This document shows positions 18,299 to 34,042 of a DNA stretch of 50,975 nucleotides, in pieces; position 1 is the stretch's first letter, and the number at the start of each line of letters is the position of its first letter. A program made the translations under genes and the position numbers. The notes beneath the pieces were generated by a model. The model searched no databases. It was not told where the DNA came from and worked only from the letters and a program-made list of their open reading frames with translations. This DNA is from Rouxiella silvae (GTDB lineage: Bacteria > Pseudomonadota > Gammaproteobacteria > Enterobacterales > Enterobacteriaceae): positions 1 to 50,975 of the forward strand of contig NZ_MRWD01000041.1 of assembly GCF_002093625.1 (NCBI RefSeq), written 5' to 3'.

Positions 18299-18871
18299 AT
18301 GAAAGACAACAATAATTCAGAAGAAAAATCTGAACTCAGCACGAGTGGCCGATTTCGCCGAAATTTGCTTTCGCGTTCAGGCTCTTTAATTGCCGGATTT
18401 GCCTTGGTTTCCGGTGGATTAACCGCCGTTCCCGCTTTGGCGAGCACGGAAAATAATGACGCCTCAGATTTCACCGCATTTATTCGTTTATCACGGTTAC
18501 TCACCGGACATAATAGTTTGGATATCCAGCTCGGTGAGCGTTTATATTCCGCCATGTGTCAGCAAAATGCCCAGTTTGCCGGGTGGGTTAAACAGTTGTC
18601 TGATTACGTTCAGCAGAACAATATTCCCGACGTTGAAACACTGGACGAAAAATTAAAACAGCATCCTCTGCATGAGCCGATGATGGCGATCGTCAAAGCG
18701 TGGTACAGCGGCGTTATTGAACCTGGCTATCACGCCACGGTTTATGGCTATCAACAGGCGTTGATGTACCAGATCCCTCGTGACGGCATGGTCATTCCGA
18801 CCTACGCACATAATGGCCCTGATTATTGGGTGGCAAATCCGCCTCCGGTTGATCGACTGCTGACTTTTTAA
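18299..18871 (+). CDS. Sugar/gluconate dehydrogenase small (gamma) subunit
   Basis: Small subunit of the membrane-bound FAD-dependent gluconate 2-dehydrogenase / sorbitol dehydrogenase type. The 190-residue protein has a twin-arginine-type leader (RFRRNLLSRSG, then a hydrophobic stretch to about residue 45), so it is probably the Tat passenger that carries the leaderless flavoprotein to the periplasm. The mature part has the family features LSRLLTGHNSLD and HATVYGYQQALMY with the late PTYAHNGPDYWVANPP. I start at the ATG at 18299, which has AAGAGG just upstream and aligns the leader; the GTG at 18239 adds 20 unlikely residues. It is followed by two short hairpins and the cytochrome gene. Confidence 0.88.
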   Translation: MKDNNNSEEKSELSTSGRFRRNLLSRSGSLIAGFALVSGGLTAVPALASTENNDASDFTAFIRLSRLLTGHNSLDIQLGERLYSAMCQQNAQFAGWVKQLSDYVQQNNIPDVETLDEKLKQHPLHEPMMAIVKAWYSGVIEPGYHATVYGYQQALMYQIPRDGMVIPTYAHNGPDYWVANPPPVDRLLTF

Positions 18872-18876
18872 TCGAT

Positions 18877-18923
18877 AGCTCGTTACCGTTGCGAGCTGGG
18901 GTTCCGGCCTTAATTCACCGGAA
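18877..18923 (+). other. Two tandem hairpins between small subunit and cytochrome genes
   Basis: AGCTCG (18877-18882) pairs with CGAGCT (18892-18897), and TTCCGG (18902-18907) pairs with CCGGAA (18918-18923). They lie directly after the small-subunit stop. Neither is followed by a T-run, so they may protect or attenuate the upstream message rather than end the transcript. Confidence 0.4.
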
Positions 18924-19033
18924 AGCGCGGTCGACTTAACAACGTTTTCACGTCTGAAAGGTTTTTCCTTAAGGAATAACCCTGCGGTTTTTTACGCCCT
19001 AAATTCAGCACGTAGTCATTAATATTGAGAAGA

Positions 19034-20530
19034 ATGGAGAGCACGTTTTTGCCAATAAATCACTCTTTACCCGGTTTTGTGCCGTTCAGGCGCGCCTTCT
19101 ATTATGCAGGCATCGCGGCGTCGGTTTTACTCAGCGGCACGGCGGCGAAGGCAGCAGAAAGTTTGCCGCTGGCGGCTCCCAGTGACCACCAAACTGGCGT
19201 TGACCTGATTGCTCGCGGAAAATATTTGGCGATAGCCTCAGACTGCGCCGCCTGTCACACCGATCCTGATTCCAAAAAGGTGTTTGCCGGTGGCTACGCG
19301 ATCCACTCGCCGATGGGGATTATTTACTCCTCCAATATCACACCCTCTAAACAGTTCGGTATTGGCAACTACACGGAAGAGCAGTTTTCTCGCGCAGTGC
19401 GTGACGGCGTTCGCGGTGACGGTAGCTATCTCTATCCTGCGATGCCTTATCCGTCCTATGCGGGGCTGACCGACGCAGACATTCATGCGCTTTATGCCTA
19501 CTTTATGCATGAAGTTAAACCGGTTGACGAACAGCCGCAGCAGACCGCGCTCAATTTCCCGTTCAACATGCGTTTCTCAATGGCTGGCTGGAATTTACTG
19601 TTTTTGCACAACAAGCCGTTCAAACCCCAGGAAGACCACGATGCGACCTGGAATCGCGGTAAATATCTGGTCGATACCGTCGAGCACTGCAGCGAATGTC
19701 ATACGCCGCGTAATGCATTGATGGCGTTGCAGGGCGGTGATGCATTGTACAGCGGCGCAATGTTGGGCAGCTGGCATGCGCCAAATCTGACCAGTGATCC
19801 GGTGAGTGGCTTGGGTAGCTGGAGCGACAAAGACTTGGCGCAGTATCTGCAAAGCGGTCATGTCGACGGCAAAGCACAGGCAGCAGGCCCGATGGCTGAG
19901 GCAGTCACTAACAGCCTGCAATATCTGCATGATGATGATATTAAAGCGATTATTGCTTATCTTCGTACTCTGCCACCGGTGCGTGACCCGTCGCAAACCA
20001 AAGCCGCGGCCGATTTTGGAACCGTTTCCAATACAGATACTGCCACCCGTGGCATTCACCCGATTTCGAAATTCCTTTCTGCCGATGCCTCGGGGCAGAC
20101 GCTGTATGACGCGGCGTGTTCGAGCTGTCACCAGCCTGACGGCAAAGGAACGCAGGACGGTTTCTACCCTTCATTGGTGCATAACACCACGCTGGGTGGC
20201 AGTTCGCCGGACAATCTGGTGTCGGCGATTCTGTTCGGCGTCCAACGCACGGTGAACGGTAAATCAGTGCTAATGCCCGCGTTTGGGCCCTATTCGGACG
20301 TGCAGGCGTTGACCGATAAACAGGTCGCGACCTTGAGTAATTACCTGCTCAAGCAGTATGGCAACCCACAGCTTTCGGTAACGGAAGAAGACGTGAAAAC
20401 GATACGTCAGGGTGGAGCGACGCCGCTCATCGCCAAAATTGCGGCGCCTGCTTCCCTTGGCGCTGGCCTGATTGTGCTGATTCTCGTGGTGCTGTTAGTG
20501 GTATGGCGTTTGCGCCGTAAACGCCGTTAA
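19034..20530 (+). CDS. Tri-heme cytochrome c subunit of sugar/gluconate dehydrogenase
   Basis: Membrane-bound cytochrome c that takes electrons from the flavoprotein and passes them to ubiquinone. Three CxxCH heme sites are visible: CAACH (residue 71), CSECH (219) and CSSCH (362). An N-terminal signal (FYYAGIAASVLLSGTAAKA) exports it, and a C-terminal helix (LGAGLIVLILVVLLVVWRLR) with an arginine/lysine tail anchors it in the inner membrane. The start is the ATG at 19034; a TTG at 19025 is also in frame. Gene order here is small subunit, cytochrome, flavoprotein. Length and layout match the gluconate dehydrogenase and alcohol dehydrogenase cytochrome subunits. Confidence 0.93.
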   Translation: MESTFLPINHSLPGFVPFRRAFYYAGIAASVLLSGTAAKAAESLPLAAPSDHQTGVDLIARGKYLAIASDCAACHTDPDSKKVFAGGYAIHSPMGIIYSSNITPSKQFGIGNYTEEQFSRAVRDGVRGDGSYLYPAMPYPSYAGLTDADIHALYAYFMHEVKPVDEQPQQTALNFPFNMRFSMAGWNLLFLHNKPFKPQEDHDATWNRGKYLVDTVEHCSECHTPRNALMALQGGDALYSGAMLGSWHAPNLTSDPVSGLGSWSDKDLAQYLQSGHVDGKAQAAGPMAEAVTNSLQYLHDDDIKAIIAYLRTLPPVRDPSQTKAAADFGTVSNTDTATRGIHPISKFLSADASGQTLYDAACSSCHQPDGKGTQDGFYPSLVHNTTLGGSSPDNLVSAILFGVQRTVNGKSVLMPAFGPYSDVQALTDKQVATLSNYLLKQYGNPQLSVTEEDVKTIRQGGATPLIAKIAAPASLGAGLIVLILVVLLVVWRLRRKRR

Positions 20531-20597
20531 GCCCTGCTCCGAACGGGTTTATCTCCTGCGCCCAGTAAGGTGCGGGCTGAAATTTTAGAGGTTATGA

Positions 20598-22229
20598 ATG
20601 TCTAACGAATTGAGTGCAGATGTCGTCATCATTGGCGGCGGGATATGCGGCGGTTTTGTTGCCCAAGAATTGGCGCAAACTGGACTGTCAGTGCTGGTGC
20701 TGGAAGCCGGTCCGCGCTGGGAACGTGCACAGGTGGTTGAAAACTGGCGTAACATGCCGCCTATCAACAAGTCTGAGTCAGACTATGCCACGCCGTATCC
20801 TTCATCTCCGTGGGCGGTCCATCCGCAGTTGCATCCTTATAATGAATATCCGCAGGTAGACGGTCCCGATGCATCGGCCTATCGGCAGGGTGTGGTTCGC
20901 GGAGTCGGCGGAACCACCTGGCACTGGGCGGCCTCGACCTGGCGTTTTCTGCCGCACGACCTTCAGCTTTACTCTACCTACGGCGTGGGTCGTGACTGGG
21001 CAGTAACTTATGACGAGCTGGAAGATTATTATTACCGTGCCGAAGTCGAAATGGGGGTTAACGGGCCAAACGATGACACTTTGAAATTCGTGGCACCGCG
21101 TAAAAAACCTTTCCCTATGGAGCCGATGCCTTACGGACCCGCGGATCGCCGATTTACCGAGGTGGTTGCCCAGGCCGGTTATGAAAACACGCCAGTTCCT
21201 CAGGCACGAAACAGCCGCCCTTACAACGGACGACCTCAGTGCTGCGGTAACAATAACTGTATGCCAATCTGCCCGATTGGTGCGATGTTTAACGGTATCC
21301 ACAGCATTGTTAAAGCCGAAAAGTTTGGCGCGAAAGTCATCCCCAACGCCGTGGTCTACAGCATGGAAACCAATGCCGCCAACGAAATTGTGGCGGTAAA
21401 CTTTTATGATCCGGATAAGCGCTCAACCCGCGTCACCGGTAAGACATTTGTGCTGGCAGGCAACGGCATCGAGTCACCGAAACTGCTGCTGCTGGCCGCC
21501 AACGACCGTAATCCGAACGGGATTGCCAACAGTTCAGGCCACGTTGGACGCAATATGATGGACCACCCAGGCATCCTGATGAGCTTCCAGGCGGCGGAAC
21601 CTATCTGGACCGGCGGCGGGTCGGTGCAGATGAGTTCAATCACTAATTTCCGCGACGGCGATTTCCGACGTGACCATTCTGCCATTCAAATCGGCATGAA
21701 TAACACCTCGCAAAATCACAAGGCGGGCGTTAAGGCATTGCAAATGGGACTGGTGGGTAAAAAGCTGGATGAAGAGATCCGCCGTCGAGCAGCCTGCGGC
21801 ATGGACATTTATGTTAACCACGACATTCTGGCCAATCCCGACAACCGTCTGCGCCTCAGCAGCACCAAAAAGGATGGGTTAGGCATCCCATACCCGCACA
21901 TTACCTATGACGTGGGTGACTACGTGCGGCGCGCGGAAGCCAGCTCGCGGCAGCATTTACAGCAGATTGCGGAGCTGTTCGGCGCGACAGAAATTGAGTC
22001 TACGCCTTACTTCAACCCGAATAACCATATTATGGGCGGCACTATCATGGGCCATGATCCGAAGGATTCGGTCGTCGATGGCTGGATGCGTACCCACGAC
22101 CATCGCAACCTGTTTATTGCTTCGGGCGGAGCGATGGCGTCAGCAGGAACGGTCAATTCCACACTGAGCATGGTGGCGTTGTCGCTGCGCGCTGTAGATG
22201 CTATCAAGAAAGATATGCTTCACGGCTAA
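20598..22229 (+). CDS. FAD-dependent sugar/gluconate dehydrogenase catalytic (alpha) subunit
   Basis: GMC-family flavoprotein of the membrane-bound gluconate 2-dehydrogenase / FAD-glucose dehydrogenase group, 543 residues. It starts with the ADP-binding fold VVIIGGGICGGFVAQELA and VLVLEAGPRW, and ends with the GMC C-terminal block NLFIASGGAMASAGTVNSTL. Cysteines C215, C216, C221 and C225 (CCGNNNCMPIC) match the [3Fe-4S] site known in the FAD-glucose dehydrogenase alpha subunit. No signal peptide, consistent with Tat export together with the small subunit. Likely substrates are D-gluconate, 2-ketogluconate or a polyol; the exact one cannot be told from sequence. Confidence 0.93.
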   Translation: MSNELSADVVIIGGGICGGFVAQELAQTGLSVLVLEAGPRWERAQVVENWRNMPPINKSESDYATPYPSSPWAVHPQLHPYNEYPQVDGPDASAYRQGVVRGVGGTTWHWAASTWRFLPHDLQLYSTYGVGRDWAVTYDELEDYYYRAEVEMGVNGPNDDTLKFVAPRKKPFPMEPMPYGPADRRFTEVVAQAGYENTPVPQARNSRPYNGRPQCCGNNNCMPICPIGAMFNGIHSIVKAEKFGAKVIPNAVVYSMETNAANEIVAVNFYDPDKRSTRVTGKTFVLAGNGIESPKLLLLAANDRNPNGIANSSGHVGRNMMDHPGILMSFQAAEPIWTGGGSVQMSSITNFRDGDFRRDHSAIQIGMNNTSQNHKAGVKALQMGLVGKKLDEEIRRRAACGMDIYVNHDILANPDNRLRLSSTKKDGLGIPYPHITYDVGDYVRRAEASSRQHLQQIAELFGATEIESTPYFNPNNHIMGGTIMGHDPKDSVVDGWMRTHDHRNLFIASGGAMASAGTVNSTLSMVALSLRAVDAIKKDMLHG

Positions 22230-22718: not shown

Positions 22719-24365
22719 ATGAAAAATCGACTATCCAGTGCTCTAGGCATCGGCCTTATGGCGCTGTCTAAACACGCGACAGCGGCGGAAAATAAAATCG
22801 TTGATGTTGTCCTGATCGGTGGCGGAATTATGAGCGCCACCTTAGGCACTTACCTCCAGGAACTGGAGCCTGACTGGTCGATTAATATGTATGAGCGACT
22901 GGATAGCGTGGCTGACGAAAGTTCTAACGGATGGAACAACGCCGGTACCGGCCACTCTGCTCTAGCAGAAATGAACTATACCCCGCAAAAAGCCGACGGC
23001 TCGGTGGATATTTCCAAAGCGGTAGAGATTAACGAAGCTTTCCAAGTCTCTCGCCAATTTTGGTCGTATCAGGTTGAGAAAAAGGTGCTCGGCGAACCGC
23101 GTTCATTCATCACCAGCGTGCCGCATATGAGCTTTGTCTGGGGTGAGAAAAACGTAGAATTCCTGCGCAAACGCCACGCAGCGCTGCAAAACAGCACACT
23201 GTTCCGCGGCATGGAATTCTCGGAAGACCGCACGCAGATTGAAAAATGGATCCCGCTGGTGCTCGAAGGCCGCAAGCCGGGTGAAAAGGTGGCTGCCACC
23301 CGTATCGACAGCGGTACTGACGTTAATTTCGGGGCAATCACGCATCAGCTGGTTGAATCACTGCGCAAAAAAACAAACTTCAGCCTGAATCTGGGCCACG
23401 AAGTTAAAAATATAAAACGCAATGCCGACCAAACCTGGACTGTGACCTTTGCTAAAACCAAAGGTGGCCGCGAAACCAGCGTAACGACTCGCTTTATCTT
23501 TATTGGTGCCGGTGGCGCGTCGCTGACACTGTTGCAGAAATCAGGCATTCCTGAGGCTTCACGCTACGGCGGCTTCCCGGTCGGCGGCGAGTTCCTGGTA
23601 ACCGATAATCCTGACATCGTTAAACGTCATCAGGCCAAGGTTTACGGTAAAGCCTCCGTTGGCGCGCCGCCGATGTCGGTTCCGCACCTTGATACACGCG
23701 TGCTGGATGGCAAAAAAGTGCTGTTGTTCGGGCCTTTCGCGACATTTTCCAGCAAGTTCTTGAAAAATGGCTCGCTGTGGGACCTGTTTGGCACCGTTAA
23801 TCTGCATAACATTTTCCCGATGGTCCGCGTTGGGCTTGATAACTTTGACCTAGTGAAGTACCTGATTAATCAGGTGATGCTCAGTGAAGATCAGCGTTTA
23901 AGCGCGCTGAAAGAGTATTTCCCGGATGCGCAAAAGCAGGACTGGCGTTTGGTTGTTGCCGGTCAGCGCGTGCAGATTATTGAAAAAGAAGGCAAAAAGG
24001 GCGGTGTCCTGCGTTTGGGCACTGAAGTGGTCACCTCACAGGATGGCTCGATTGCTGCACTGTTGGGGGCATCTCCGGGCGCTTCTACCGCGGCGCCAAT
24101 CATGTTGCAGCTGATGGAGCGGGTATTTAAAGACAAAATTGCTTCGCCTGAATGGCAGAGTAAACTGAAAGAAATGATCCCGTCTTATGGTCAGGAAATG
24201 AATGGCAATGTGGAGCTTTCAGAAAGAGAAATGAACCGCACTAGCCGTATTCTACAGCTTGAAGACGCCCATGCTGACGTTACGCCAGCGAAACCTGCGG
24301 CCGTAGTTCAGCCAGTGGTTCAGGTTCAGGAAGAAGAAGCCCTGCAGGAAGAGTTGACCTCGTAA
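22719..24365 (+). CDS. mqo: Malate:quinone oxidoreductase
   Basis: FAD-dependent, membrane-associated enzyme oxidising malate to oxaloacetate with electrons going to quinone, a TCA-cycle bypass of NAD-dependent malate dehydrogenase. The 548-residue protein aligns end to end with E. coli Mqo: the N-terminal hydrophobic leader, the FAD motif [40 protein letters not shown] and [20 protein letters not shown]. The C-terminal tail rich in Pro, Val and Glu is also a feature of the E. coli protein. It stands alone with a terminator-like hairpin after it. With the dehydrogenase upstream it forms a quinone-reducing block. Confidence 0.97.
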
Positions 24366-25543: not shown

Positions 25544-25568
25544 ATCATATTGACTGATTGTATGATTG
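25544..25568 (+). promoter_or_regulatory. Promoter -10 and predicted GntR-type operator of the lactone cluster
   Basis: TATGAT (25561-25566) is a good -10 box, and the region TGATTGTATGA (25555-25565) overlapping it recurs exactly in inverted orientation at 29201-29211 and imperfectly at 33361-33371. ATCATA (25544-25549) and TATGAT (25561-25566) form an inverted repeat. This arrangement fits repression by the cluster's GntR/FCD regulator. Confidence 0.5.
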
Positions 25569-25612
25569 CAGCATGTTTTTTGACCACAACAAAATAGCAG
25601 CGGGGAATGAGC

Positions 25613-26422
25613 ATGTCGTCCGAGAGCGAGCAGTATCAAATTTACGCCATCAAATATGCGCACCACGACCGCATGTCGAGCGAGAACTTTATCGGCGGCG
25701 ATCCTCACGACGTGCCGATGCCGCTGGACTATTTCGTGTGGGCCATTGTCGGCACTTCAGAAACGTACGTTGTCGATATGGGATTTGATGCTGAAATGGC
25801 CAACAGGCGCGGAAGGACTATCGTGCACAGCGTCGAGCAGGGGTTGGGGCAACTGGGTATCCGCGTTGCCGACGTCAAGCAAGTCGTGATCACCCACATG
25901 CACTACGACCACGCGGGGAATCACAGCCTGTTTCCACAGGCACGATTTCACGTGCAGGACAGCGAAATGGCGTTTTGCACCGGTCGTTGTATGTGTCATC
26001 ACGGCATCCGCCACGCCTTTGAAGTCGAGGACGTGAAATCGATGGTCGAAAAAATTTTTGCAGGTCGCGTGCAGTTCCACGACGGCGATTCGGAGCTGGC
26101 ACCAGGGATTACTTTACATCGAGTTGGAGGCCACTCAGATGGCCTACAGGTGGTACGCGTTAACACCGCGCGCGGCTGGGTCGTGTTGGCCTCGGACGCC
26201 TCACACTACTACGCCAATATGCAGCGCAACCTGGCATATCCTATTGTTTATAACATCGGTGACATGCTTGAAGGCTATGCCACGCTGCGTCGCCTCGCTG
26301 ATTCCGATGACCATATCATTCCCGGCCACGATCCGCTGGTGCTGCAATACTATCCCGCTTTCAACGCCGACACTCAGGGTTGGATTGCGCGGGTAGACGC
26401 TGACCCGCGTCGGCCTGATTAA
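25613..26422 (+). CDS. AttM/BlcC-type N-acyl-homoserine lactonase-family metallo-hydrolase
   Basis: Metallo-beta-lactamase-fold hydrolase of about 269 residues. The dinuclear zinc ligands are visible: HMHYDHAGN (HxHxDH), a later His in GGHSDG, Asp in LASDASHYY and His in IIPGHDP. The opening YAIKYA...SSENFIGGDPHDVPMPLDYFV is the characteristic start of the N-acyl-homoserine lactonase/gamma-butyrolactonase subfamily (AttM, BlcC). I prefer the ATG at 25613, since GGGGA sits 6-7 bases upstream; an ATG at 25607 is too close. It heads the catabolic cluster, so lactone hydrolysis feeding the next enzymes is more likely than quorum quenching as the primary role. Confidence 0.88.
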   Translation: MSSESEQYQIYAIKYAHHDRMSSENFIGGDPHDVPMPLDYFVWAIVGTSETYVVDMGFDAEMANRRGRTIVHSVEQGLGQLGIRVADVKQVVITHMHYDHAGNHSLFPQARFHVQDSEMAFCTGRCMCHHGIRHAFEVEDVKSMVEKIFAGRVQFHDGDSELAPGITLHRVGGHSDGLQVVRVNTARGWVVLASDASHYYANMQRNLAYPIVYNIGDMLEGYATLRRLADSDDHIIPGHDPLVLQYYPAFNADTQGWIARVDADPRRPD

Positions 26423-26470
26423 CTTTCCTTCTGCGCACCAGGCGCAGAATAACGTCGAATGGAGTAAATG

Positions 26471-26797
26471 ATGATTGTAGAAATGCGTGTCTATCACTGT
26501 GCCGCAGGTCGCTTACCGGCGTTACAGGAGCGTTTTAGAAACACTACGCTGGCATTTTTCGATAAGTATGGCATCAAACAGATTGGCTTTTGGACTACCG
26601 TTGTTGGCCCGAGCAATCACGCACTGACTTATCTGCTGCAATGGGAGAGTCTGGCGGAACGCGAAGAGAAATGGAACGCCTTTCAGGCCGACAAAGAATG
26701 GCAGGCCAAGCGCAGCGCCAGTGAGGCACAGCAACCGATTGTGGAACGTATTGAGAACCACTTTTTAGCGCCTACAGACTTTTCAGCGCTTCGTTAA
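26471..26797 (+). CDS. NIPSNAP-family protein
   Basis: Small ferredoxin-like (dimeric alpha-beta barrel) protein of 108 residues. The start MIVEMRVYHCAAGRLPALQE and the late LQWESLAEREEKWNAFQADKEW, quoted in part, are typical of the NIPSNAP family (PF07978). GGAG lies 6 bases before the ATG at 26471; another ATG directly before it (26468) is possible. NIPSNAP proteins are often encoded inside catabolic operons for lactones, aromatics or terpenoid-like acids, but their biochemical role is not established. The 48-base gap after the lactonase supports co-transcription. Confidence 0.85.
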   Translation: MIVEMRVYHCAAGRLPALQERFRNTTLAFFDKYGIKQIGFWTTVVGPSNHALTYLLQWESLAEREEKWNAFQADKEWQAKRSASEAQQPIVERIENHFLAPTDFSALR

Positions 26798-26838
26798 CTT
26801 TTTACCGAAAGACGTTTTCATCCAAAAGGCCCAATGAC

Positions 26839-27726
26839 ATGACTTCGCTTAACAAGATTGGTTTTATAGGTTTAGGAATGATGGGCACACCGATGGTGAA
26901 ATGCTTGGCCTCGGCGGGCTATACGCTATTTATTGCCGATGCAGACGCACAGCGCGTCACTGCACTGTGCGAGTCTTTACCGGCAACGGCGCTAGGCAGT
27001 GCGAATATTGGCGAGCTGGACGTGTTGATCACCATGCTGCCAAATTCATCGATTGTTGAAAGCGTGTTGCTCGACCCCGAGCGGGGATGGGCATCAGGTT
27101 TGGCGCAGGCGGCGGTGGTGATTGATATGAGCTCCTCCGAGCCTGAACGTTCGCGCCAACTGGGCGCTACGCTAACACAGTTGGAACTGCGCTATCTCGA
27201 TGCCCCGGTCTCTGGCGGAGTAAAAAAAGCCAACACCGGTGAGCTTTCTATTTTAGTCGGCGGTGATGCGGCGGTGCTTGAGGCTTGTCGCCCTCTGCTG
27301 CAGGCGATGGGCAAAAGCATTTTGCACATTGGCACAGCGGGATCGGGCCACGCGGCTAAGGCGCTGAACAACTATGTCTCGGCCGCCGGTCTGATTGCTA
27401 CCGTCGAAGCTTTACACATTGCACAGCGCTTCGGCATTGAGCCTGCGGTAATGACCGACGTGCTCAATGCCTCCACCGGGCGCAGCAATACGTCGGAAAA
27501 TAAAGTCAAACCTTTCATGCTAAGCGGTTCATTCGGCTCGGGTTTTGCTTTGCAGTTAATGAACAAAGACTTGAAGATTGCCCGCGCGCTCTCTATGTCG
27601 GTGGGCTATCCGATGAAACTTGGCGTGGCCTGCACCGATCTCTGGGACAGCGTTTCGCAGCAGGCAACACCGGCAACCGATCACACTGAAATGTATCGTT
27701 TTCTTGCTGATGAAGAGGGGAGGTAA
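26839..27726 (+). CDS. 3-Hydroxyisobutyrate dehydrogenase-family NAD(P) oxidoreductase (first copy)
   Basis: Beta-hydroxyacid dehydrogenase of 295 residues. The Rossmann motif IGFIGLGMMGTPMVKCL, the substrate-binding DAPVSGGVKKANTGEL (DxPVSGG) and the catalytic lysine segment GSGHAAKALNNYVSAAG are all intact. Family members oxidise 3-hydroxyisobutyrate, tartronate semialdehyde, hydroxypropionate or gamma-hydroxybutyrate-type substrates. Lying between a lactonase and an aldehyde dehydrogenase gene (2-base gap to the latter), it would oxidise the hydroxy acid released from the lactone to a semialdehyde. A second paralog sits downstream in the same cluster; the two probably have different substrates. 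Confidence 0.9.
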   Translation: MTSLNKIGFIGLGMMGTPMVKCLASAGYTLFIADADAQRVTALCESLPATALGSANIGELDVLITMLPNSSIVESVLLDPERGWASGLAQAAVVIDMSSSEPERSRQLGATLTQLELRYLDAPVSGGVKKANTGELSILVGGDAAVLEACRPLLQAMGKSILHIGTAGSGHAAKALNNYVSAAGLIATVEALHIAQRFGIEPAVMTDVLNASTGRSNTSENKVKPFMLSGSFGSGFALQLMNKDLKIARALSMSVGYPMKLGVACTDLWDSVSQQATPATDHTEMYRFLADEEGR

Positions 27727-27728
27727 TC

Positions 27729-29165
27729 ATGACTCACGCCTCACATTTTTATATTGACGGTCAATGGGTTAGCCCCGTTGCGCCCGCCTGGTTTGACCTG
27801 ACTGACCCTTCAACCGAGCGCCAATTTGAGCGGCTTGCGATGGGCGATGCCGCCGACGTTGACCTGGCGGTGGCTGCGGCACGGCGCGCATTGCCGTCGT
27901 TTTCAGCGACGGCGGCGGCCGAGCGGCTGGCCCTACTGCAGCGCATTGTCGCGGTTTATGAGCGCCGCTATGAGGAGTTTGCAGAAACGATGCGCCTTGA
28001 AATGGGTTCACCGATTACCTTTTCAAGGCAAGGGCAGGCGGCGCGCGGACCTGCGCATTTGAATGCAATGATTGAGGTGCTAAAAACCTTTCAGTTTGAG
28101 CAACAGCAGGGCACGACCAGACTGCGTCTGGAGCCGGTGGGTGTTTGCGGATTGATCACCCCGTGGAACTGGCCGGTGAACCAAATCGTGGTGAAAATTG
28201 CGCCTGCACTGGCGGCGGGCTGCACGATGGTGTTGAAACCTAGCGAATATTCACCGCTGACGGCGCTGCTGTTTGCCGAAGTGCTGGAGGAAGCCGGTGT
28301 GCCTGCGGGGGTATTTAATCTGGTTAATGGCGATGGCCCGCGCGTGGGTGCCGCCATTGCCGCACATCCCGACATTGATATGGTGTCGTTTACTGGTTCA
28401 ACCCGTGCAGGCATTGAAGTGGCGAAAACGGCCGCTGAAACGGTGAAACGCGTTGCGCAGGAACTGGGCGGTAAATCGGCCAATATTTTGCTCGACGATG
28501 TTAATTTGCCGGACGCCGTGACCCGCGCCGTGGCGGCGTGTTTCACCAACTCCGGCCAATCTTGTTCGATTCCTACGCGCCTGCTGGTGCCACGCGGCCT
28601 GTTGCAGGAAGCGGCGCAAATCGCCAAACAGGCCGCACTTACCTACCGCTTGGGGCCGACGGACGACCCTACTACTCAGCTCGGACCTTTGGTTAACCGC
28701 AACCAGTTTGAGCGGGTACAAAAGCTGATTCAGCAGGGCATTGATGAAGGCGCTGAACTGGTGACCGGCGGCGTTGGCCGACCTGAGGGATTCACTCACG
28801 GCTATTACGTCAAGCCAACGGTGTTCAGCGCGGTAACGCCTGAAATGACGCTCGCTCAAGAAGAGATTTTTGGCCCGGTTCTATCGATTATCGCCTATGA
28901 CTCCGAGCCGGAGGCTATCGCGATTGCCAACGGCACTCAATATGGACTGGCTGCTTATGTTCAGTCGGCCTCGCAGGCGCGAGCCCAAGGCGTAGCACGT
29001 CAGCTGCGTGCCGGCAGTGTGCATGTGAACTATCCTCCCGCCGATTTTCATGCGCCGTTTGGCGGCTATAAACGTTCGGGCAACGGACGCGAGTGGGGCG
29101 AGGCAGGACTGCGTGAATACCTGGAAATTAAATCGATGGTCGGCTTTGGTCTATCGGATGCCTGA
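27729..29165 (+). CDS. Aldehyde dehydrogenase family protein
   Basis: NAD(P)-dependent aldehyde dehydrogenase of 478 residues. It has the family landmarks: PWNWPVNQIVVKIAPALAAG (the Asn of the oxyanion site), FTGSTRAG, the general-base Glu in QELGGKSANILL, the nucleophile Cys in NSGQSCSIPTRL, and the late EEIFGPVLSI. A Shine-Dalgarno GGGGAGG precedes the start. In the order lactonase, hydroxyacid dehydrogenase, aldehyde dehydrogenase it parallels the Agrobacterium blc (attKLM) gamma-butyrolactone pathway, where this enzyme converts a semialdehyde to the dicarboxylate. Substrate here is not known. Confidence 0.93.
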   Translation: MTHASHFYIDGQWVSPVAPAWFDLTDPSTERQFERLAMGDAADVDLAVAAARRALPSFSATAAAERLALLQRIVAVYERRYEEFAETMRLEMGSPITFSRQGQAARGPAHLNAMIEVLKTFQFEQQQGTTRLRLEPVGVCGLITPWNWPVNQIVVKIAPALAAGCTMVLKPSEYSPLTALLFAEVLEEAGVPAGVFNLVNGDGPRVGAAIAAHPDIDMVSFTGSTRAGIEVAKTAAETVKRVAQELGGKSANILLDDVNLPDAVTRAVAACFTNSGQSCSIPTRLLVPRGLLQEAAQIAKQAALTYRLGPTDDPTTQLGPLVNRNQFERVQKLIQQGIDEGAELVTGGVGRPEGFTHGYYVKPTVFSAVTPEMTLAQEEIFGPVLSIIAYDSEPEAIAIANGTQYGLAAYVQSASQARAQGVARQLRAGSVHVNYPPADFHAPFGGYKRSGNGREWGEAGLREYLEIKSMVGFGLSDA

Positions 29166-29184
29166 TGCAGTAGGGCAAAAAAAT

Positions 29185-29216
29185 TTGCCTAAATTCACTG
29201 TCATACAATCATACAT
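29185..29216 (+). promoter_or_regulatory. Second copy of the predicted GntR-type operator
   Basis: TCATACAATCA (29201-29211) is the exact reverse complement of the 11-mer at 25555-25565, and a partial repeat CATACAT continues after it. It lies 40-50 bases before the PcaC-like gene, suggesting a second controlled transcription start inside the cluster. TTGCCT at 29185-29190 is a possible -35, but no well-spaced -10 could be fixed. Confidence 0.45.
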
Positions 29217-29249
29217 AAATGTGGGCCATGTGCGGCTAAAAAGGAAACA

Positions 29250-29648
29250 ATGATGGAAAATAATCCGAGCTTTGAGAAAGGTTTTGCCAACCGCAAAGAG
29301 GTGTTGGGCGCGGCTCACGTCGAGAAGTCGTGGTCCAACGCCGATGACTTTAATCGCCCGATGCAAAAGCTGGTGACCGAGTACTGCTGGGGCGACATTT
29401 GGGGCGATCCTACACTGTCGTTTAAAACCCGCAGCATGCTCAATATTGGCATGCTGACCGCGATGAGCCAGCACCATGAGCTTTCGGTACACGTCAGAGG
29501 AGCATTAAACAACGGCGTTAGCAAAGAGGAGATCCGCGCAGTGCTGATGCAGGCGGGCGTTTACTGCGGCGCGCCGTTGGCTTTGGCGGCATTTCGCGTG
29601 GCAAGCGAGGCTATCAAAGCCTGGGAGGAGGAGAAAGCCAAAGCCTGA
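29250..29648 (+). CDS. Carboxymuconolactone decarboxylase-family protein (PcaC-like)
   Basis: A 132-residue single-domain CMD protein. The core LSFKTRSMLNIGMLTAMSQH and the segment HVRGALNNGVSKEEIRAVLM plus QAGVYCGAPLALAAFRVA are those of 4-carboxymuconolactone decarboxylase PcaC, the protocatechuate-pathway enzyme, but there is no other pca gene nearby. The fold is used for several decarboxylases and AhpD-like peroxidases; there is no CxxC pair, so the AhpD role is excluded. Two adjacent ATG codons (29250, 29253) follow AAGGA. Within this cluster it probably acts on a keto acid or lactone intermediate. Confidence 0.9.
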   Translation: MMENNPSFEKGFANRKEVLGAAHVEKSWSNADDFNRPMQKLVTEYCWGDIWGDPTLSFKTRSMLNIGMLTAMSQHHELSVHVRGALNNGVSKEEIRAVLMQAGVYCGAPLALAAFRVASEAIKAWEEEKAKA

Positions 29649-29816
29649 TGTTCCAAGCATAAGCACATTATTTCGCCAACACCGGCAGTCAGCTGATGGG
29701 TAAATTTCTCGTCAGCAAACGTCTTACCTGCATTGCCTGCCCGTCTGGTTCGCGCCCGACGGTTCCCTACACACGCATCCATAAGAGATGCGGCAATAAA
29801 GAGACAGGAGACTGAA

Positions 29817-31163
29817 ATGGAAACTCTGACCGCACAAGTCGGCGCCCATCGCGCCGAAAGCGAACAATCCATTGATGTAAAAAGAAAGAGTGCAATTAAA
29901 GGCGCTTTCTTTTCTGAATACATCGATATGTTTGATATTTACCTGCCGGTGGTTGCCCTCTCGCCGGTGCTGTTTTACTTCCAGCCGCCTAATCTATCAA
30001 GCGGCACCGAGACCATTCTCGCCTCGCTGGTGTTTATCACTACACTGCTCGGAAGACCACTGGGTGCGCTGCTATTTGGCATCATGGCCGACAGCATAGG
30101 GCGGCGCAAAGCCTCCATTTATTCGGTCTCCGGCTTTGGCGTTGTGACGCTGCTGATAGCCTGCCTGCCGGGCTATCAGACCCTTGGCATTGGCGCCTAC
30201 GTGATGCTGGTATTACTGCGCTTTATTGACGGAATTTTTCTTGGCGGCGGCTACACCGGTGCAATGCCGTTGGCGATTGAATACTCGAAAAAACATCAGC
30301 GGGGCTTCGTCGGTGGCTTGATTATCAGCGGATTCCCTGCCGCCTATGTCAGCATTAATCTGATCACCATGCTGGTGTTCTTCCTGTTTCCACTTAACGG
30401 GCTGGATTCACCCTATGTGCAGTGGGGCTGGCGCATACCCTTTATCATCGGCGGCGTACTGGCGGCCTTTTTAGCGCTGTATTACATCTTTAAGGTTAAA
30501 GAATCAGAAATTTGGGAAAGCGAAACCGGCGGTGTAAAGCGCGAAAAACTGGCGTTAAGCGATCTGCTGCGTGGCAAGAGTGGGCGTAACCTGCTGCAGG
30601 TGCTGCTGATGATGAGTGGTTTCTGGCTGACGCAAAATATTATCACTATCTATCTGCCGACCGGCCTGCTGGTTCATACCCTGCATCTCAGCGGTTTTGA
30701 GATGACCTCGACGCTGCTTATCACCTACTGCGTGCTGTTTTTCAGCTATATCGGCTCAGGCATGCTGGGCCAGAAAATTGGCCGCCGGCGCTTTTTCCTG
30801 ATTGCAGGCCCGTTAATTGCCGTGCTGGGCTCGGCGCTGCTCTATGTGCTGACCACCGTTCCCGGCCTTTCGCTGGGCACCATTATGCTGCTGGTGGGCG
30901 TATTGGCCGTGCTGGTGACCTCGCCGTGGGGCGTGATAGTGACCTACATCAACGAGCGTTTCGTTACCGACGTGCGCGCCACCGGCTTTGGCATGGGCTT
31001 TAGCCTGTCGGTCATTATTCCCTCTTTCTATGCGTTTTATATGGATTGGCTTAGCGCACTGATGCCGTTGGCACTGACCTCGGTGGTGCTGCTGGCGCTG
31101 GGCGCGGTGATAGGCACCCTCGGCGCTTATATGGGGCCAGAAACCAAAGACGTCGATTTTTAA
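29817..31163 (+). CDS. MFS transporter (metabolite:H+ symporter type)
   Basis: Inner-membrane carrier of 448 residues with twelve predicted helices. The loop motif GIMADSIGRRKASIYS is the MFS signature, and DIYLPVVALSPVLFYF at helix 1 plus FIDGIFLGGGYTGAMPLAIE at helix 4 resemble the MHS/AAHS organic acid symporters. The start at 29817 follows ACAGGAG; the longer frame to 29733 has no support. Its place in the middle of the catabolic genes makes it the likely uptake system for the cluster's substrate. The 168-base gap before it has no gene but contains a small hairpin CGCATC/GATGCG. Confidence 0.9.
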   Translation: METLTAQVGAHRAESEQSIDVKRKSAIKGAFFSEYIDMFDIYLPVVALSPVLFYFQPPNLSSGTETILASLVFITTLLGRPLGALLFGIMADSIGRRKASIYSVSGFGVVTLLIACLPGYQTLGIGAYVMLVLLRFIDGIFLGGGYTGAMPLAIEYSKKHQRGFVGGLIISGFPAAYVSINLITMLVFFLFPLNGLDSPYVQWGWRIPFIIGGVLAAFLALYYIFKVKESEIWESETGGVKREKLALSDLLRGKSGRNLLQVLLMMSGFWLTQNIITIYLPTGLLVHTLHLSGFEMTSTLLITYCVLFFSYIGSGMLGQKIGRRRFFLIAGPLIAVLGSALLYVLTTVPGLSLGTIMLLVGVLAVLVTSPWGVIVTYINERFVTDVRATGFGMGFSLSVIIPSFYAFYMDWLSALMPLALTSVVLLALGAVIGTLGAYMGPETKDVDF

Positions 31164-31184
31164 ACTATTTGTGGAGAGTCCCTG

Positions 31185-32084
31185 ATGAATACCGAGCGCG
31201 TTGGATTTATAGGTTTGGGAAATATGGGCGGGCGTATGACGCGTTGCCTGGTCGATGCCGGAATAAACGTGCTGGGTTTTGACCCAGTAGTAGAACGCGC
31301 CGCCGCCGCAGGTGCCAGCGCTGCCGCGTCGTTGGCCGACGTGATGGGCTATGCCGACGTTGTCATGCTCTCACTGCCCGACAGCAAGGTAGTGGAGTCG
31401 GTGGTTGAGGGGGAAAACGGCATTCTTGCACACTGCCGCCGTGGGCAAACGGTGATTGATCTCAGCACTGCCGCCGCCAGCTCGACGGTTCGCCTGCACG
31501 GGTTGTTCGCCGGTAAAGGCGTCTACTATATCGACGCCGGTATTTCGGGCGGTGCCGCCGCGGCTGAAAAAGGGGCCTTAACGTTGATGGTGGGCGGTGA
31601 CGCGCAGGCGATAGACGCCATAGCGTGGGCTTTCAAGCCTATTGCGGCCAAGGTCATTGCGATGGGCGGCAGCGGCAGTGGGCACACCACCAAGCTGCTG
31701 AACAATTTCCTCAATGCCGTGAGCCTCGCCGCCACCGCCGAAGTGATGGTGGCTGGGAAAAAAGCTGGGCTGGACATGCACTGCCTGCTCGACGTCCTCA
31801 ACAGCAGCAGTGGGGTGAACTTCGCCACTCTGAATCGTTTCCCAAAAATTGTTGATGGCGATTATCTAGAAGGCGGTCTGACCGGCAAGCTGATGACCAA
31901 GGATGTGGCGCTTTACGTCGATCGCGTGCGCGAGCTGGGCGTGGTTTCACTCAATGCATCTGGCCCACTGGCGAGCTTTGGCTTGGCAACTTCGCTCGGC
32001 TATGGCGATGTCATCAGCAATCGGGTGGTTGACGCGATTGGCGACGTGTCCGGCGGTGTTCGCCTGTACGACAAATCAAACTAA
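31185..32084 (+). CDS. 3-Hydroxyisobutyrate dehydrogenase-family NAD(P) oxidoreductase (second copy)
   Basis: A 299-residue paralog of the enzyme at 26839, with VGFIGLGNMGGRMTRCL as cofactor motif, DAGISGGAAAAEKGALTLMV in place of the usual DxPVSGG loop, and the catalytic lysine in SGHTTKLLNNFLNAVSLAA. The change from DxPVSGG to DAGISGG alters the substrate pocket and suggests a different acid from the first copy. GGAGAG precedes the ATG. It is co-directional with the MFS gene (21-base gap) and the cupin gene (14-base gap), so clearly in one operon. Confidence 0.9.
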   Translation: MNTERVGFIGLGNMGGRMTRCLVDAGINVLGFDPVVERAAAAGASAAASLADVMGYADVVMLSLPDSKVVESVVEGENGILAHCRRGQTVIDLSTAAASSTVRLHGLFAGKGVYYIDAGISGGAAAAEKGALTLMVGGDAQAIDAIAWAFKPIAAKVIAMGGSGSGHTTKLLNNFLNAVSLAATAEVMVAGKKAGLDMHCLLDVLNSSSGVNFATLNRFPKIVDGDYLEGGLTGKLMTKDVALYVDRVRELGVVSLNASGPLASFGLATSLGYGDVISNRVVDAIGDVSGGVRLYDKSN

Positions 32085-32098
32085 ACGGGAGAAGGGCA

Positions 32099-32503
32099 AT
32101 GAAAGTATTTCATGGCAGGGCTGAAGGGGTGATTTCAGAGCAGCGCAGCAGCACTTTTAGCGGAGAAGTCTGGGGCGATCCGGTGATGCCAACCACCGAT
32201 GACGTGACCATCAATAGCGTATTTTTCGCCCCCGGCGGGCGCACTTACTGGCACACCCATCAGCAGGGACAAATACTGCAAGTGGTCTCGGGCAGCGGCT
32301 GGGTCTGCGTGGACGGCGAGTCACCCCAGGCCATACGCCAAGGCGATACGGTGTGGATACCGGCGGACGAGCGTCACTGGCACGGAGCCGGTAAAGACAG
32401 TTTTATGCTGCATACCGCGACATCGCTTGGCAAGACTCTGTGGCAGGAAGAAGTGGCGGAGGAGGTGTATCAGCGGGCGATAAAGGGAGGGAATGCGTCA
32501 TGA
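32099..32503 (+). CDS. Cupin-domain protein
   Basis: Small single-cupin beta-barrel protein of 134 residues. The metal-binding first cupin motif is seen in GGRTYWHTHQQGQILQVVSG (G-x5-HxH-x3-4-E-type, with Gln for Glu) and the second in WIPADERHWHGAG (PxxxxH). Such proteins next to CMD-domain genes act as isomerases, decarboxylases or dioxygenase-like enzymes or remain uncharacterised. Its stop overlaps the start of the following CMD gene (ATGA), showing translational coupling and a probable shared task. Confidence 0.88.
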   Translation: MKVFHGRAEGVISEQRSSTFSGEVWGDPVMPTTDDVTINSVFFAPGGRTYWHTHQQGQILQVVSGSGWVCVDGESPQAIRQGDTVWIPADERHWHGAGKDSFMLHTATSLGKTLWQEEVAEEVYQRAIKGGNAS

Positions 32504-33288
32504 ATCTTACCCAACAGCAGCAACAGGTTAAGGCGGCATTTATTCAGCAGCATCAAACCTGGGACGCACAGTGGGAAAGCCTGCTGCTTCAGGACGCCGA
32601 CTTTATCGACGGGTATCTTAAATTTTCCTCCGTGCCTTGGAAGAAAAATCATCTTGAAAACAAAGTGAAAGCGTTTGTAGCCCTCAGTGCCAGCGTGGCC
32701 TCGACGCACATTTATCTTCCCGGAATTGCGCAGCATTTACGTGCTGCCGTAGCGTTTGGTGCCACACAGCAGGAGCTGACTGAGGTGCTGGAGTTGACCA
32801 GTACGCTCGGCATTCACGCCGCGAATATCGGCGTGCCGCTGCTGCTTGAGGTGCTGGAAGAAGAAGGGTTACGCCACGGGCCTGCGCCGTTGGATGCTCG
32901 GCGGGAAACGCTGAAACAGGCGTTTATCGACAATCGTGGCTATTGGCATGCCTCTTGGGACGGGCTGTTGGAACTCGACCCCGAACTGTTTGAAGCTTAT
33001 ATCGAATTCTCGTCGGTACCTTGGCGTACCGGTGTGTTGCCGCCCAAGATAAAAGAGTTGATTTACTGTGCCTTCGACGCCTCGGCGACCCATCTTTATC
33101 AGCAGGGGCTTAAGCTGCACATGCGCAACGCCATCAACTATGGTGCCAGTAAAGAGGAGATCATGGAGGTGCTGGAGATTGTCAGCGTGATTGGTATTCA
33201 CGGCGCTACGGTGGCGGCACCCCTCGTTGAACAGGCGCTGGCACAGGCCGCGCTATTTACGCCAATGACCCCCTCTCAGGCGTCCTGA
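32500..33288 (+). CDS. Tandem carboxymuconolactone decarboxylase-domain protein
   Basis: A 262-residue protein made of two CMD-like halves. The first (about residues 30-125) has KVKAFVALSASVASTHIYLP and AVAFGATQQELTEVLELTS; the second (about 160-250) has KIKELIYCAFDASATHLYQQ and AINYGASKEEIMEVLEIVS. The internal duplication is plain: FIDGYLKFSSVPWKKN in the first half matches FEAYIEFSSVPWRTG in the second. I start at the ATG at 32500 (overlap with the cupin stop). Related two-domain proteins are often annotated as gamma-carboxymuconolactone decarboxylase subunits in lactone/aromatic operons. The real reaction is unknown. Confidence 0.9.
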   Translation: MNLTQQQQQVKAAFIQQHQTWDAQWESLLLQDADFIDGYLKFSSVPWKKNHLENKVKAFVALSASVASTHIYLPGIAQHLRAAVAFGATQQELTEVLELTSTLGIHAANIGVPLLLEVLEEEGLRHGPAPLDARRETLKQAFIDNRGYWHASWDGLLELDPELFEAYIEFSSVPWRTGVLPPKIKELIYCAFDASATHLYQQGLKLHMRNAINYGASKEEIMEVLEIVSVIGIHGATVAAPLVEQALAQAALFTPMTPSQAS

Positions 33289-33360
33289 GGGTTAAAAGAT
33301 AGGCATCGCTTTTCACCGGACAGGCCGCTATGATGAGGGTAACTTAAACTTGTCGGACAG

Positions 33361-33371
33361 GAATACAATCA
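33361..33371 (+). promoter_or_regulatory. Third, imperfect copy of the predicted GntR-type operator
   Basis: GAATACAATCA matches the inverted 11-mer TCATACAATCA at nine positions and ends on the first base of the GntR start codon, where binding would give autorepression. It could be chance, since only nine bases match. Confidence 0.35.
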
Positions 33372-34042
33372 TGTCTTCAGATATCGGCCTAGTACGGCCT
33401 GAAACGCTGCGTTTTCAGGTAGAAAATGCGTTACGACAAGCGATAATTAATGGCCGATTTGTCCCCGGAGAAAGGTTGATTGAGCGCGAACTTTGCGAAA
33501 CGCTGGGTGTGAGCCGCACGTCAATCCGTGAAGCCTTGCGCAAACTCGAAGCCGAAAAGCTGGTGGATATTGTTCCGCATAAAGGACCGATCGTTGCCAC
33601 TATTTCCGTTAAAGAGGCGACGGACCTCTACGCGCTGCGCGGCCTGCTAGAAGGCTTTGTGGCGCGCGAGTTTTCACAGTGCGCCAGCGATGCCGATATA
33701 GCTAAGTTTGGCGCTGCCGCCCAGGCGCTGCGTAAAGCCGGACTGGCGCAGGATCAGGCCAGTGTATTGCAGGCTAAAAATGCGCTTTACGGCATTATGC
33801 TTGAGCGCTGCGGCAACGAACTGGTCAAAGAAGCACTGACCAGCCTGCATTCGCGGGTCAATCTGCTGCGGGCCACCTCGCTGATGCACCCCGATCGCCT
33901 GCCTCATAGCCTGCAGGAGATTGACTCTTTGTATCAGGCAATCAAGGCGCGCGACGGTGACGGCGCAGAAAAAGCCGCGCGATTGCACGTGGCCAATGCG
34001 CAGACCGTGGCGTTGCAAATGCTCAGCAAAGCCGAGTCTTAG
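33371..34042 (+). CDS. GntR-family (FCD/FadR-type) transcriptional regulator
   Basis: A 223-residue regulator. The winged helix-turn-helix is in residues 10-70 (ALRQAIINGRFVPGERLIER, ELCETLGVSRTSIREALRKL), followed by an all-helical FCD effector domain (LYALRGLLEGFVARE onward) that in this family binds a carboxylic acid, often through a metal held by Asp/His residues. AGGAA precedes the ATG at 33371. As the last gene of the cluster and the only regulator in it, it most likely represses the two promoters marked by the shared 11-base motif, with a pathway acid as inducer. Its stop overlaps the end of the convergent permease gene by 4 bases. Confidence 0.92.
   Translation: MSSDIGLVRPETLRFQVENALRQAIINGRFVPGERLIERELCETLGVSRTSIREALRKLEAEKLVDIVPHKGPIVATISVKEATDLYALRGLLEGFVAREFSQCASDADIAKFGAAAQALRKAGLAQDQASVLQAKNALYGIMLERCGNELVKEALTSLHSRVNLLRATSLMHPDRLPHSLQEIDSLYQAIKARDGDGAEKAARLHVANAQTVALQMLSKAES

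Follow-up and report, generated by a model that had tools for sequence, protein, structure and literature searches.

Several described pathways share parts with a ten-gene block in Rouxiella silvae (assembly GCF_002093625.1, contig NZ_MRWD01000041.1, positions 1-50,975), which lies at about 25,607-34,042 of a 50,975-nucleotide stretch referred to here as the window. The genes are designated Lac, NIP, HIB1, ALDH, CMD1, MFS, HIB2, CUP, CMD2 and GNTR (Table 1). The Agrobacterium blcABC (attKLM) operon, whose BlcB is an iron alcohol dehydrogenase, combines enzyme classes that also occur in the block: metallo-beta-lactamase (MBL) lactonase, hydroxyacid dehydrogenase and aldehyde dehydrogenase. A dedicated repressor is a further likeness (PMC5924552). 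The block differs in its lactonase and dehydrogenase families, both of its hydroxyacid dehydrogenases being NAD_binding_2/NAD_binding_11 proteins unlike BlcB; it adds CMD, cupin, NIPSNAP and MFS proteins, and its aldehyde dehydrogenase is dispensable in relatives. With the protocatechuate branch of the beta-ketoadipate pathway the block has in common a PcaC-like carboxymuconolactone decarboxylase (CMD) family protein, CMD1, and a lactone hydrolase; however, CMD1 lies under the PcaC cutoff, an MBL enzyme replaces the PcaD alpha/beta hydrolase, and the block is without dioxygenase, cycloisomerase and thiolase, the Lactamase_B protein being its sole lactonase candidate. Oxidative catabolism of deoxyribose and deoxyribonate includes a lactone step and is not known to involve the CMD/cupin/HIBADH core of the block. 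The likeness is that Pseudomonas and Paraburkholderia oxidise both a sugar and the acid derived from it (PMC6365646). Finally, an MmgE/PrpD protein and a lactonase encoded in Pseudomonas aeruginosa PA0878-0886 serve branched dicarboxylates and derivatives such as 2-hydroxyparaconate (relevant passages of PMC9875883), and both protein types recur in the block, the former in its extended version; the CoA transferase, itaconyl-CoA hydratase and citramalyl-CoA lyase are absent from the ten genes, which have HIBADH, CMD and cupin proteins instead.

No description of the gene set was found among the listed matches in open-licence PMC papers, and no open-licence PMC paper has NIPSNAP together with MmgE. 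The main text of PMC5789663, on P. phymatum and root exudates, contains carboxymuconolactone, hydroxyisobutyrate and cupin zero times and lactonase once, in the references; PMC9007349 has lactonase four times, in passages on glucuronate, and none of five other terms sought. The relevant passages of PMC12290011 concern 2-hydroxyparaconate only. Ten papers matched PDB entry 2q0t, the closest solved relative of CMD2, or its locus tag, mostly through chance strings; only PMC2685735 and PMC5615479 appear to mention it truly.

The ten genes form one inherited unit that is real, conserved and apparently co-regulated. With about even confidence, we read this unit as a catabolic regulon of patchy distribution, carried on plasmids in some cases, whose substrate is a carboxylate that either occurs as a lactone or is converted to one within the pathway. 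An earlier note on this DNA had proposed an uncharacterised catabolic system around a lactonase and hydroxyacid dehydrogenases, to be checked, among other means, by a gene-neighbourhood survey; the proposal is supported, with no published pathway for the gene set in the open-licence papers searched and with synteny, joint loss and a common operator-like palindrome linking the genes.

Plasmid pHS1 of Sodalis praecaptivus carries the same ten genes in identical order. On a Paraburkholderia megaplasmid, a short-chain dehydrogenase/reductase (SDR), an MmgE/PrpD protein and a third dehydrogenase are inserted between lactonase and NIPSNAP, and Acidiphilium cryptum pACRY02 has the order CMD1-HIB1-MFS-lactonase-SDR-HIB2-CUP-CMD2-NIPSNAP with a divergent GntR gene. 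For a wider view, a species-genome collection was scanned with a CMD2 alignment (A3) and the best 80 of 234 relatives were analysed; gene labels follow BLAST identity cut-offs rather than trees, and loci truncated by contig ends are scored as misses. Half of the loci (40/80) are of the ALDH type (Pseudomonas, Caballeronia, Paraburkholderia, Burkholderia, Sodalis, Raoultella), 33 combine HIB2 with CMD2 but lack ALDH (32 in Actinobacteria, and L026, a Paraburkholderia locus starting at a contig end), and seven have CMD2 without HIB2, five of these with lactonase and SDR. Across the 80 loci, HIB2 is present in 73, the cupin and the SDR in 72 each, HIB1 in 68, CMD1 in 64, GNTR in 58, ALDH in 40, NIPSNAP in 39 and MmgE/PrpD in 37; Lac itself occurs in 27 and a second MBL type, LacB, in 48, replacing Lac in Pseudomonas and Actinobacteria while the core is retained.

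Enterobacterales, Pseudomonas and Burkholderiaceae preserve the gene order; Acetobacteraceae and Actinobacteria have it rearranged. The run HIB1-ALDH-CMD1-MFS-HIB2-CUP-CMD2 is uninterrupted by any other labelled gene in 37 of the 40 ALDH-type loci, all 40 of which have HIB2, cupin and CMD2 as neighbours; HIB2 and CUP adjoin in 72/80 loci overall. Among the 33 non-ALDH loci, HIB2-CUP-CMD1-HIB1 forms a run without other labelled genes in 22, and CMD1 adjoins HIB1 in 22 as well as in two Acetobacteraceae. Lactonase, HIB2, cupin, HIB1 and CMD2 are all kept in 31 of the 32 actinobacterial loci, in none of which an orthologue of ALDH or NIPSNAP was found; within the survey these two are confined to proteobacterial loci. 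Across nearly all lineages the core consists of lactonase, HIB2-cupin, HIB1, CMD2 and usually CMD1. The SDR, the MmgE/PrpD protein and the third hydroxyacid dehydrogenase are each found in 37/40 ALDH-type loci, and judged by gene content the window carries a shortened version of the cluster; Enterobacterales versions have no SDR. Distance matrices, compared over up to 48 loci, correlate at 0.79-0.97 among NIP, HIB1, ALDH, CMD1, MFS, HIB2, CUP and CMD2 and at 0.87-0.97 between these eight and Lac, values without species-tree control, part of which vertical descent alone could yield.

The cluster is rare. Of 99 sampled relatives, five have it: the window, three congeners and a genome whose match begins at the coordinate seen on the Sodalis plasmid. 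In the order it was found in a single one of 394 sampled genomes, that of the window, and, with the A3 profile at a looser cutoff, in 2 of 398 genomes of the phylum, the second match being distant (145 bits). A gene set so tightly conserved from Enterobacterales to Actinobacteria and yet so rare indicates a specific substrate that is important in some niches. In a DNA-level search of plasmids, none of the five records returned spans 80% of the block. The Rhizobium and Bosea plasmids with NIPSNAP relatives do not have them in such a cluster, and a Ciceribacter record carries no annotation. Other gene contexts surround the tandem-CMD relatives of Natronosalvus, Rhodococcus, Ensifer, a Ti plasmid, Diaphorobacter, Sphingobium, Tsukamurella and Sulfitobacter.

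Within the genus, CMD2 is encoded in four of six genomes, the window included. The other three carry all ten genes at the same site, between PanE-like and codB-like flanks, at 85-100% identity. Between the same flanks, one congener (G001) has the regulator alone (68% identical) and another (G002) has NIPSNAP (85%) and the regulator (75%). It thus seems that both genomes lost the enzymes as one block or close to it. An empty site or fresh insertion was considered and rejected: remnants lie between the same neighbours, and loss therefore fits better. A role in pantothenate or pantoyl-lactone metabolism was likewise rejected, the PanE-like and codB-like genes flanking the site in all six genomes, with or without the enzymes. 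The remnants lie at L131 1693-2361 and L132 2544-3557, and the regulator or NIPSNAP left on its own may serve another purpose as well.

Among those listed, the upstream regions at the operon heads have a common palindrome, GATTGT-NNN-ACAATC (GATTGTNNNACAATC). In 48 ALDH-type loci (956 kb), there are 20 exact matches, 45 matches with at most one mismatch and 72 with at most two; five mononucleotide shuffles gave means of 0.0, 0.4 and 13.0, and ten dinucleotide shuffles gave means of 0, 1.0 and 25.9 with maxima of 0, 3 and 32. At three mismatches the pattern is background (240 observed vs 270 shuffled). Twenty exact matches against none in shuffled sequence are far from chance. Sites with up to two mismatches lie 5′ of CMD1 in 38/48 loci, the window included, and 5′ of HIB1, NIP or Lac in 20/48 (7, 11 and 2). 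Eleven Pseudomonas loci have a site at both operon heads, and in Pseudomonas the site falls between TTGACC and a TATAGT-like hexamer, a placement as would be expected of a repressor operator. The half-site 5′ of Lac in the window (Table 1) recurs in the three congeners, and a fuller site, GATTGTATGACAAGA, precedes Lac in Sodalis pHS1. Stray sites occur as well: nine loci have one that goes with no gene start, and a site lies near ALDH in one locus and near CMD2 in one; L071 has no site at all. Both halves of the block look co-regulated, and because the palindrome heads both units in relatives, the GntR/FCD protein is the likely common switch, which would bind there. Set against co-regulation are the derivation of the pattern from the very loci used for the count, a number of them closely related, which keeps the count from being an independent test; the window taken alone, with three sites at up to two mismatches vs 2.1 expected, not above chance; and the Pseudomonas regulator, only 41-44% identical, yet with the same motif nearby. 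The window's own sites are weaker than those of its relatives.

Other candidate signals were tried and dropped. A third operator 5′ of the regulator (33356-33370) has three mismatches and is not kept, by eye, in G001 and G002; the 10-mer TGTATGATTG has six matches at up to one mismatch vs 3.25 expected, which is not significant; and a generic scan for sigma-70 promoters and terminators gave signals no more than chance. Directly 5′ of the CMD1 operator, at 29174-29189, lies an A/T tract with dyad symmetry (GGCAAAAAAATTTGCC), and a tract with AAAAAATTT occurs 5′ of CMD1 in 11 of 11 relatives among the matches listed. The tract might serve a second regulator, act as an UP element or belong to the ALDH terminator.

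No block protein reaches the cutoff of an NCBIfam model among the matches listed. Nearest are CMD1 to PcaC (137.3 vs 155.7 bits) and CUP to (R)-mandelonitrile lyase (NF049940, 117.6 vs 140). Lac has intact zinc-site motifs (HMHYDH, GGH, ASDA, PGHD); its nearest PDB entry is 8x78, followed by GcL and later by AiiA, and its relatives bear the public label 'N-acyl homoserine lactonase family protein'. Among models of N-acyl homoserine lactonases it scores 62.1 bits with AiiA (cutoff 375), its best NCBIfam match, 55.3 with AidB (360), 53.6 with AhlS (475) and 51.0 with AttM (NF045700, 390). HIB1 reaches 205.7 with its best equivalog (cutoff 397) and HIB2 173.5 with 3-hydroxyisobutyrate dehydrogenase (HIBADH; 291.6), both lying under the cutoffs of the HIBADH, tartronate semialdehyde reductase and threonate dehydrogenase equivalogs. 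The best PDB match of each is 2-hydroxymethylglutarate dehydrogenase (3cky; 164 bits for HIB1). Both have the GxGxMG, SGG and KxxNN signature of the beta-hydroxyacid dehydrogenase superfamily; KxxNN is kept in 78/78 HIB1 and 82/82 HIB2 homologues, SGG in 78/78 and 80/82. An acidic residue after strand 2 suggests NAD preference, and as HIB1 and HIB2 both have one, they are probably NAD-linked.

ALDH retains the GQSC, ELGG and KPSE motifs (Cys/Glu) and scores 339.6 with the succinate-semialdehyde dehydrogenase (SSADH) model TIGR01780 (cutoff 646.35) and 291.5 with PRK11241 (828); none of the best 25 of 42 NCBIfam models compared reaches its cutoff. CMD1 is the top of eight matches to the PcaC model in the whole genome, none over cutoff. 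CxxC, the redox motif of AhpD-type peroxidases, is absent from CMD1 and CMD2 of the window and from all CMD1 homologues (0/74). CMD2 matches 2q0t at 352.8 bits, an entry whose only name is that of a putative gamma-carboxymuconolactone decarboxylase subunit. CUP contains HTHQQGQ and HWH; HxHxxxQ and HWH, which we take to be a metal site, are kept in 81/81 homologues. It aligns to 4bif, 2f4p and 4uxa, its closest solved relatives being 4bif and 4uxa (75.5 and 74.3 bits), presumably the cupin GtHNL. The nearest NCBIfam model of MFS is the organic-acid symporter-like TIGR00883 (188.4 vs 443). A fold search with NIPSNAP gave uncharacterised NIPSNAP proteins as the closest structures, from which no function follows; with 4-methylmuconolactone methylisomerase it loosely shares a fold (Foldseek TM 0.41-0.44, weak).

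In the catabolic pathway that we propose, MFS would import an organic acid by proton symport and Lac would open a lactone to a hydroxy acid; that a lactone is opened is probable, since a lactonase belongs to the core, with two MBL types across lineages. HIB1 and HIB2 would oxidise hydroxyl groups near the carboxylate to an aldehyde or keto acid, and the CMD proteins would remove CO2 from beta-keto/formyl or carboxy-lactone intermediates, or rearrange them. Decarboxylation is the natural guess because CMD1 and CMD2 are without CxxC and CMD1 resembles PcaC. In the HIB2 branch, the metal cupin would serve an isomerisation or C-C step, and ALDH would feed central metabolism by converting a semialdehyde to an acid. 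Two oxidation-decarboxylation modules, HIB1-CMD1 and HIB2-CUP-CMD2, are proposed because of the adjacency of CMD1 and HIB1 and that of HIB2, cupin and CMD2. The substrate class may be, on weak grounds, a di- or tricarboxylate that is branched and carries a hydroxymethyl group, together with its lactone: the likeness to organic-acid symporters, the match to 2-hydroxymethylglutarate dehydrogenase and the MmgE/PrpD protein of the extended version, nearest to IDS-epimerase/IRG1, which act on branched or poly-carboxylates, each weak, together favour a branched hydroxy-polycarboxylate over a neutral sugar lactone. The pairing of an MmgE/PrpD protein with a lactonase in PA0878-0886 offers a precedent from branched-dicarboxylate catabolism (PMC9875883). 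Solving the pathway would assign functions at once to the tandem CMD protein, the CMD-linked cupin, NIPSNAP and two hydroxyacid dehydrogenases.

Several observations weigh against this pathway or the unity of the block. With no enzyme at a curated cutoff among the matches listed, every reaction is a superfamily guess; 3cky is merely the nearest solved relative within a large superfamily, and proteins of the CMD, cupin and NIPSNAP families could serve many functions. Three of 40 ALDH-type loci lack HIB1 (L034 and L041, where the third dehydrogenase is present, and L080, which starts at a contig end); among the 32 actinobacterial loci, no CMD1 was found in eight. Regulator distances correlate less well (0.61-0.85), but at 0.96 with Lac. 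In most lineages an SDR adjoins the lactonase, which would equally fit a dehydrogenase of the sugar type, and none of the 20 conserved neighbour families scanned names a natural source.

A narrower form of the pathway, for lactones of hydroxymethyl-branched di- or tricarboxylates such as fungal 2-hydroxyparaconate/itatartarate or paraconate/itamalate, has a slim chance of being right. Lac would open the lactone, HIB1 would oxidise the hydroxymethyl to a formyl group, ALDH would yield the carboxylate and CMD1 would remove CO2 to give malate or succinate, while HIB2, cupin and tandem CMD would run a parallel or later oxidation-decarboxylation. According to PMC9875883, the strains tested there did not use 2-hydroxyparaconate and itatartarate as carbon source; were the narrower form true, it would explain bacterial use of such lactones and assign a function for the first time to the tandem CMD (2q0t) and to the cupin that accompanies it.

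Among the alternatives, it is possible though doubtful that the block oxidises an unusual sugar, branched or deoxy, or the corresponding aldonic acid. The SDR of the fuller versions would produce an aldonolactone, Lac would open it, later enzymes would oxidise and decarboxylate, and the window version would import the lactone or acid. The 55 lactonase-SDR adjacencies in 80 loci (LacB-SDR 38, Lac-SDR 17) suit this route, as does the Acidiphilium SDR, at 212.2 vs a cutoff of 215 with a 'glucose 1-dehydrogenase' subfamily model, whereas the Paraburkholderia SDR is nearest 3-hydroxybutyrate dehydrogenase and Enterobacterales versions have none. Further points in its favour are the presence, close to some of the reduced actinobacterial loci, of an ABC importer of the SBP_bac_8 type and of an aldolase resembling HpaI/GarL (135.9 vs 368.8), and the precedent of oxidative deoxyribose catabolism (PMC6365646), yet no IlvD/EDD or enolase-type dehydratase is among the 20 neighbour families scanned, and the transporter resembles organic-acid symporters.

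It is unlikely that the block is a beta-ketoadipate-like module in which NIPSNAP isomerises, CMD1 decarboxylates and Lac opens a muconolactone-type product of aromatic ring fission. CMD1 is near PcaC, NIPSNAP loosely resembles 4-methylmuconolactone methylisomerase and a lactonase fits chemically as the next step; against this, neither the block nor the 20 neighbour families scanned include a ring-cleavage dioxygenase, cycloisomerase or CoA step, the lactonase is an MBL protein and not PcaD, the fold match is weak, and the dehydrogenase pair is left unexplained.

The HIBADH superfamily includes 4-hydroxybutyrate dehydrogenases, and the first operon has the class order lactonase, hydroxyacid dehydrogenase, aldehyde dehydrogenase. 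A gamma-butyrolactone/4-hydroxybutyrate route with a beta-hydroxyacid dehydrogenase replacing the BlcB alcohol dehydrogenase could build on this, as blcABC turns gamma-butyrolactone into gamma-hydroxybutyrate and succinate semialdehyde (blc passages of PMC5924552). Such a route is nonetheless very improbable: AttM and SSADH scores are far from cutoff, ALDH is outside the conserved core, and no work is left for CMD1, HIB2, cupin and CMD2. The earlier note had drawn a blc parallel for the first part of the block. A blc-like route as backbone of the system is not supported, the lactonase, dehydrogenases and ALDH lying far under the AttM, HIBADH-type and SSADH cutoffs and no orthologue of ALDH or NIPSNAP having been found in the 32 actinobacterial loci; the note was correct that the dehydrogenase family is not that of blc. 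It had also placed CMD and cupin enzymes without a recognised pathway in a second part added to the first; the enzymes stand as described, but instead of an add-on branch they are the shared core across lineages. The note was thus right on the system and its orphan state, less so on blc.

That Lac hydrolyses acyl-homoserine lactones for quorum quenching, the remaining genes being incidental, is hardly credible: its fold is related to GcL, AiiA and AttM and its relatives are annotated accordingly, but the AiiA, AidB, AhlS and AttM models are far under cutoff, the linkage to catabolic genes is conserved, and a second MBL type substitutes in Pseudomonas and Actinobacteria while the core stays.

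Returning to the ten genes themselves, all are intact and, as the earlier note had it, co-directional, and every family it named is confirmed by Pfam: Lactamase_B, NIPSNAP, NAD_binding_2 with NAD_binding_11 (twice), Aldedh, CMD, MFS_1, Cupin_2, CMD in two stretches, and GntR with FCD. Its lactonase gene stands, but not its start at 25613, which is the second ATG; the frame opens at ATG 25607. ATG 29817 is the likely start of MFS, CMD2 starts at ATG 32500 with a 4-base overlap with the cupin stop, and the regulator starts at TTG 33350 or at the in-frame ATG 33371. Intergenic gaps are 2 to 61 bases, or the 4-base overlap, except for 84 bases 5′ of CMD1 and 168 bases 5′ of MFS. Given these two wider gaps in otherwise operon-like spacing, two transcription units, Lac-NIP-HIB1-ALDH and CMD1-MFS-HIB2-CUP-CMD2(-GNTR), are plausible.

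Table 1. Genes of the block and putative operator elements in the window.
Feature	Coordinates	Strand	Support
Lac, MBL-fold lactonase-like hydrolase, 271 aa	25607..26422	+	PF00753, 51.1 bits
NIP, NIPSNAP-family dimeric alpha/beta-barrel protein, 109 aa	26468..26797	+	Pfam NIPSNAP
HIB1, beta-hydroxyacid dehydrogenase (HIBADH/tartronate-semialdehyde-reductase superfamily), 295 aa	26839..27726	+	PF03446+PF14833
ALDH, aldehyde dehydrogenase, 478 aa	27729..29165	+	PF00171, 512.6 bits
CMD1, PcaC-like CMD family protein, 132 aa	29250..29648	+	CMD; TIGR02425 137.3 bits, cutoff 155.7
MFS, metabolite:H+ symporter-like transporter, 448 aa	29817..31163	+	PF07690
HIB2, second beta-hydroxyacid dehydrogenase, 299 aa	31185..32084	+	PF03446+PF14833
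CUP, small metal cupin, (R)-mandelonitrile lyase/TM1010 type, 134 aa	32099..32503	+	Cupin_2; NF049940
CMD2, tandem (two-domain) CMD protein, 262 aa	32500..33288	+	PF02627, two stretches
GNTR, GntR/FCD transcriptional regulator, 230 aa	33350..34042	+	PF00392+PF07729
Putative operator 5′ of CMD1, GATTGTATGACAGTG	29196..29210	-	2 mismatches to GATTGTNNNACAATC
Putative operator half-site 5′ of Lac, GATTGTATGAT	25556..25566	+	left palindrome half only, behind TTGACT -35-like hexamer

Some further genes were seen in and around related loci. Sodalis pHS1 has a second, diverged MBL lactonase-like gene (L007 2978-3862) on the opposite strand, about 1.3 kb upstream of the cluster. On Sphingobium pEP1 (L098 6029-18347), a tandem CMD gene is accompanied by genes for an amidohydrolase, two MmgE/PrpD proteins, NIPSNAP, SDRs and a VOC protein, with no HIBADH annotated, in what looks like another catabolic region where these families recur side by side, and on Agrobacterium pTi_Tun176 (L096 3030-10713) it lies beside TRAP transporter and intradiol dioxygenase genes. 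Reduced actinobacterial loci (L078 238-10759; L036, L046, L068, L073) have lactonase, SDR and CMD2 near an IclR gene and an ABC importer, with DUF6282 in some and the HpaI/GarL-like aldolase on the opposite strand; in L078, two open reading frames beside the aldolase have no family match and by eye resemble a cupin and a CMD protein. In nine loci, all from Paraburkholderia (L082 10704-11558 and eight more), CMD2 and the regulator have a histidine-phosphatase gene close by. Upstream of the block in the window, at 18239-22229, a FAD-SLDH-type small subunit, a cytochrome c and a GMC oxidoreductase make up a membrane sugar or sugar-acid dehydrogenase complex, followed by an mqo gene at 22719-24365.

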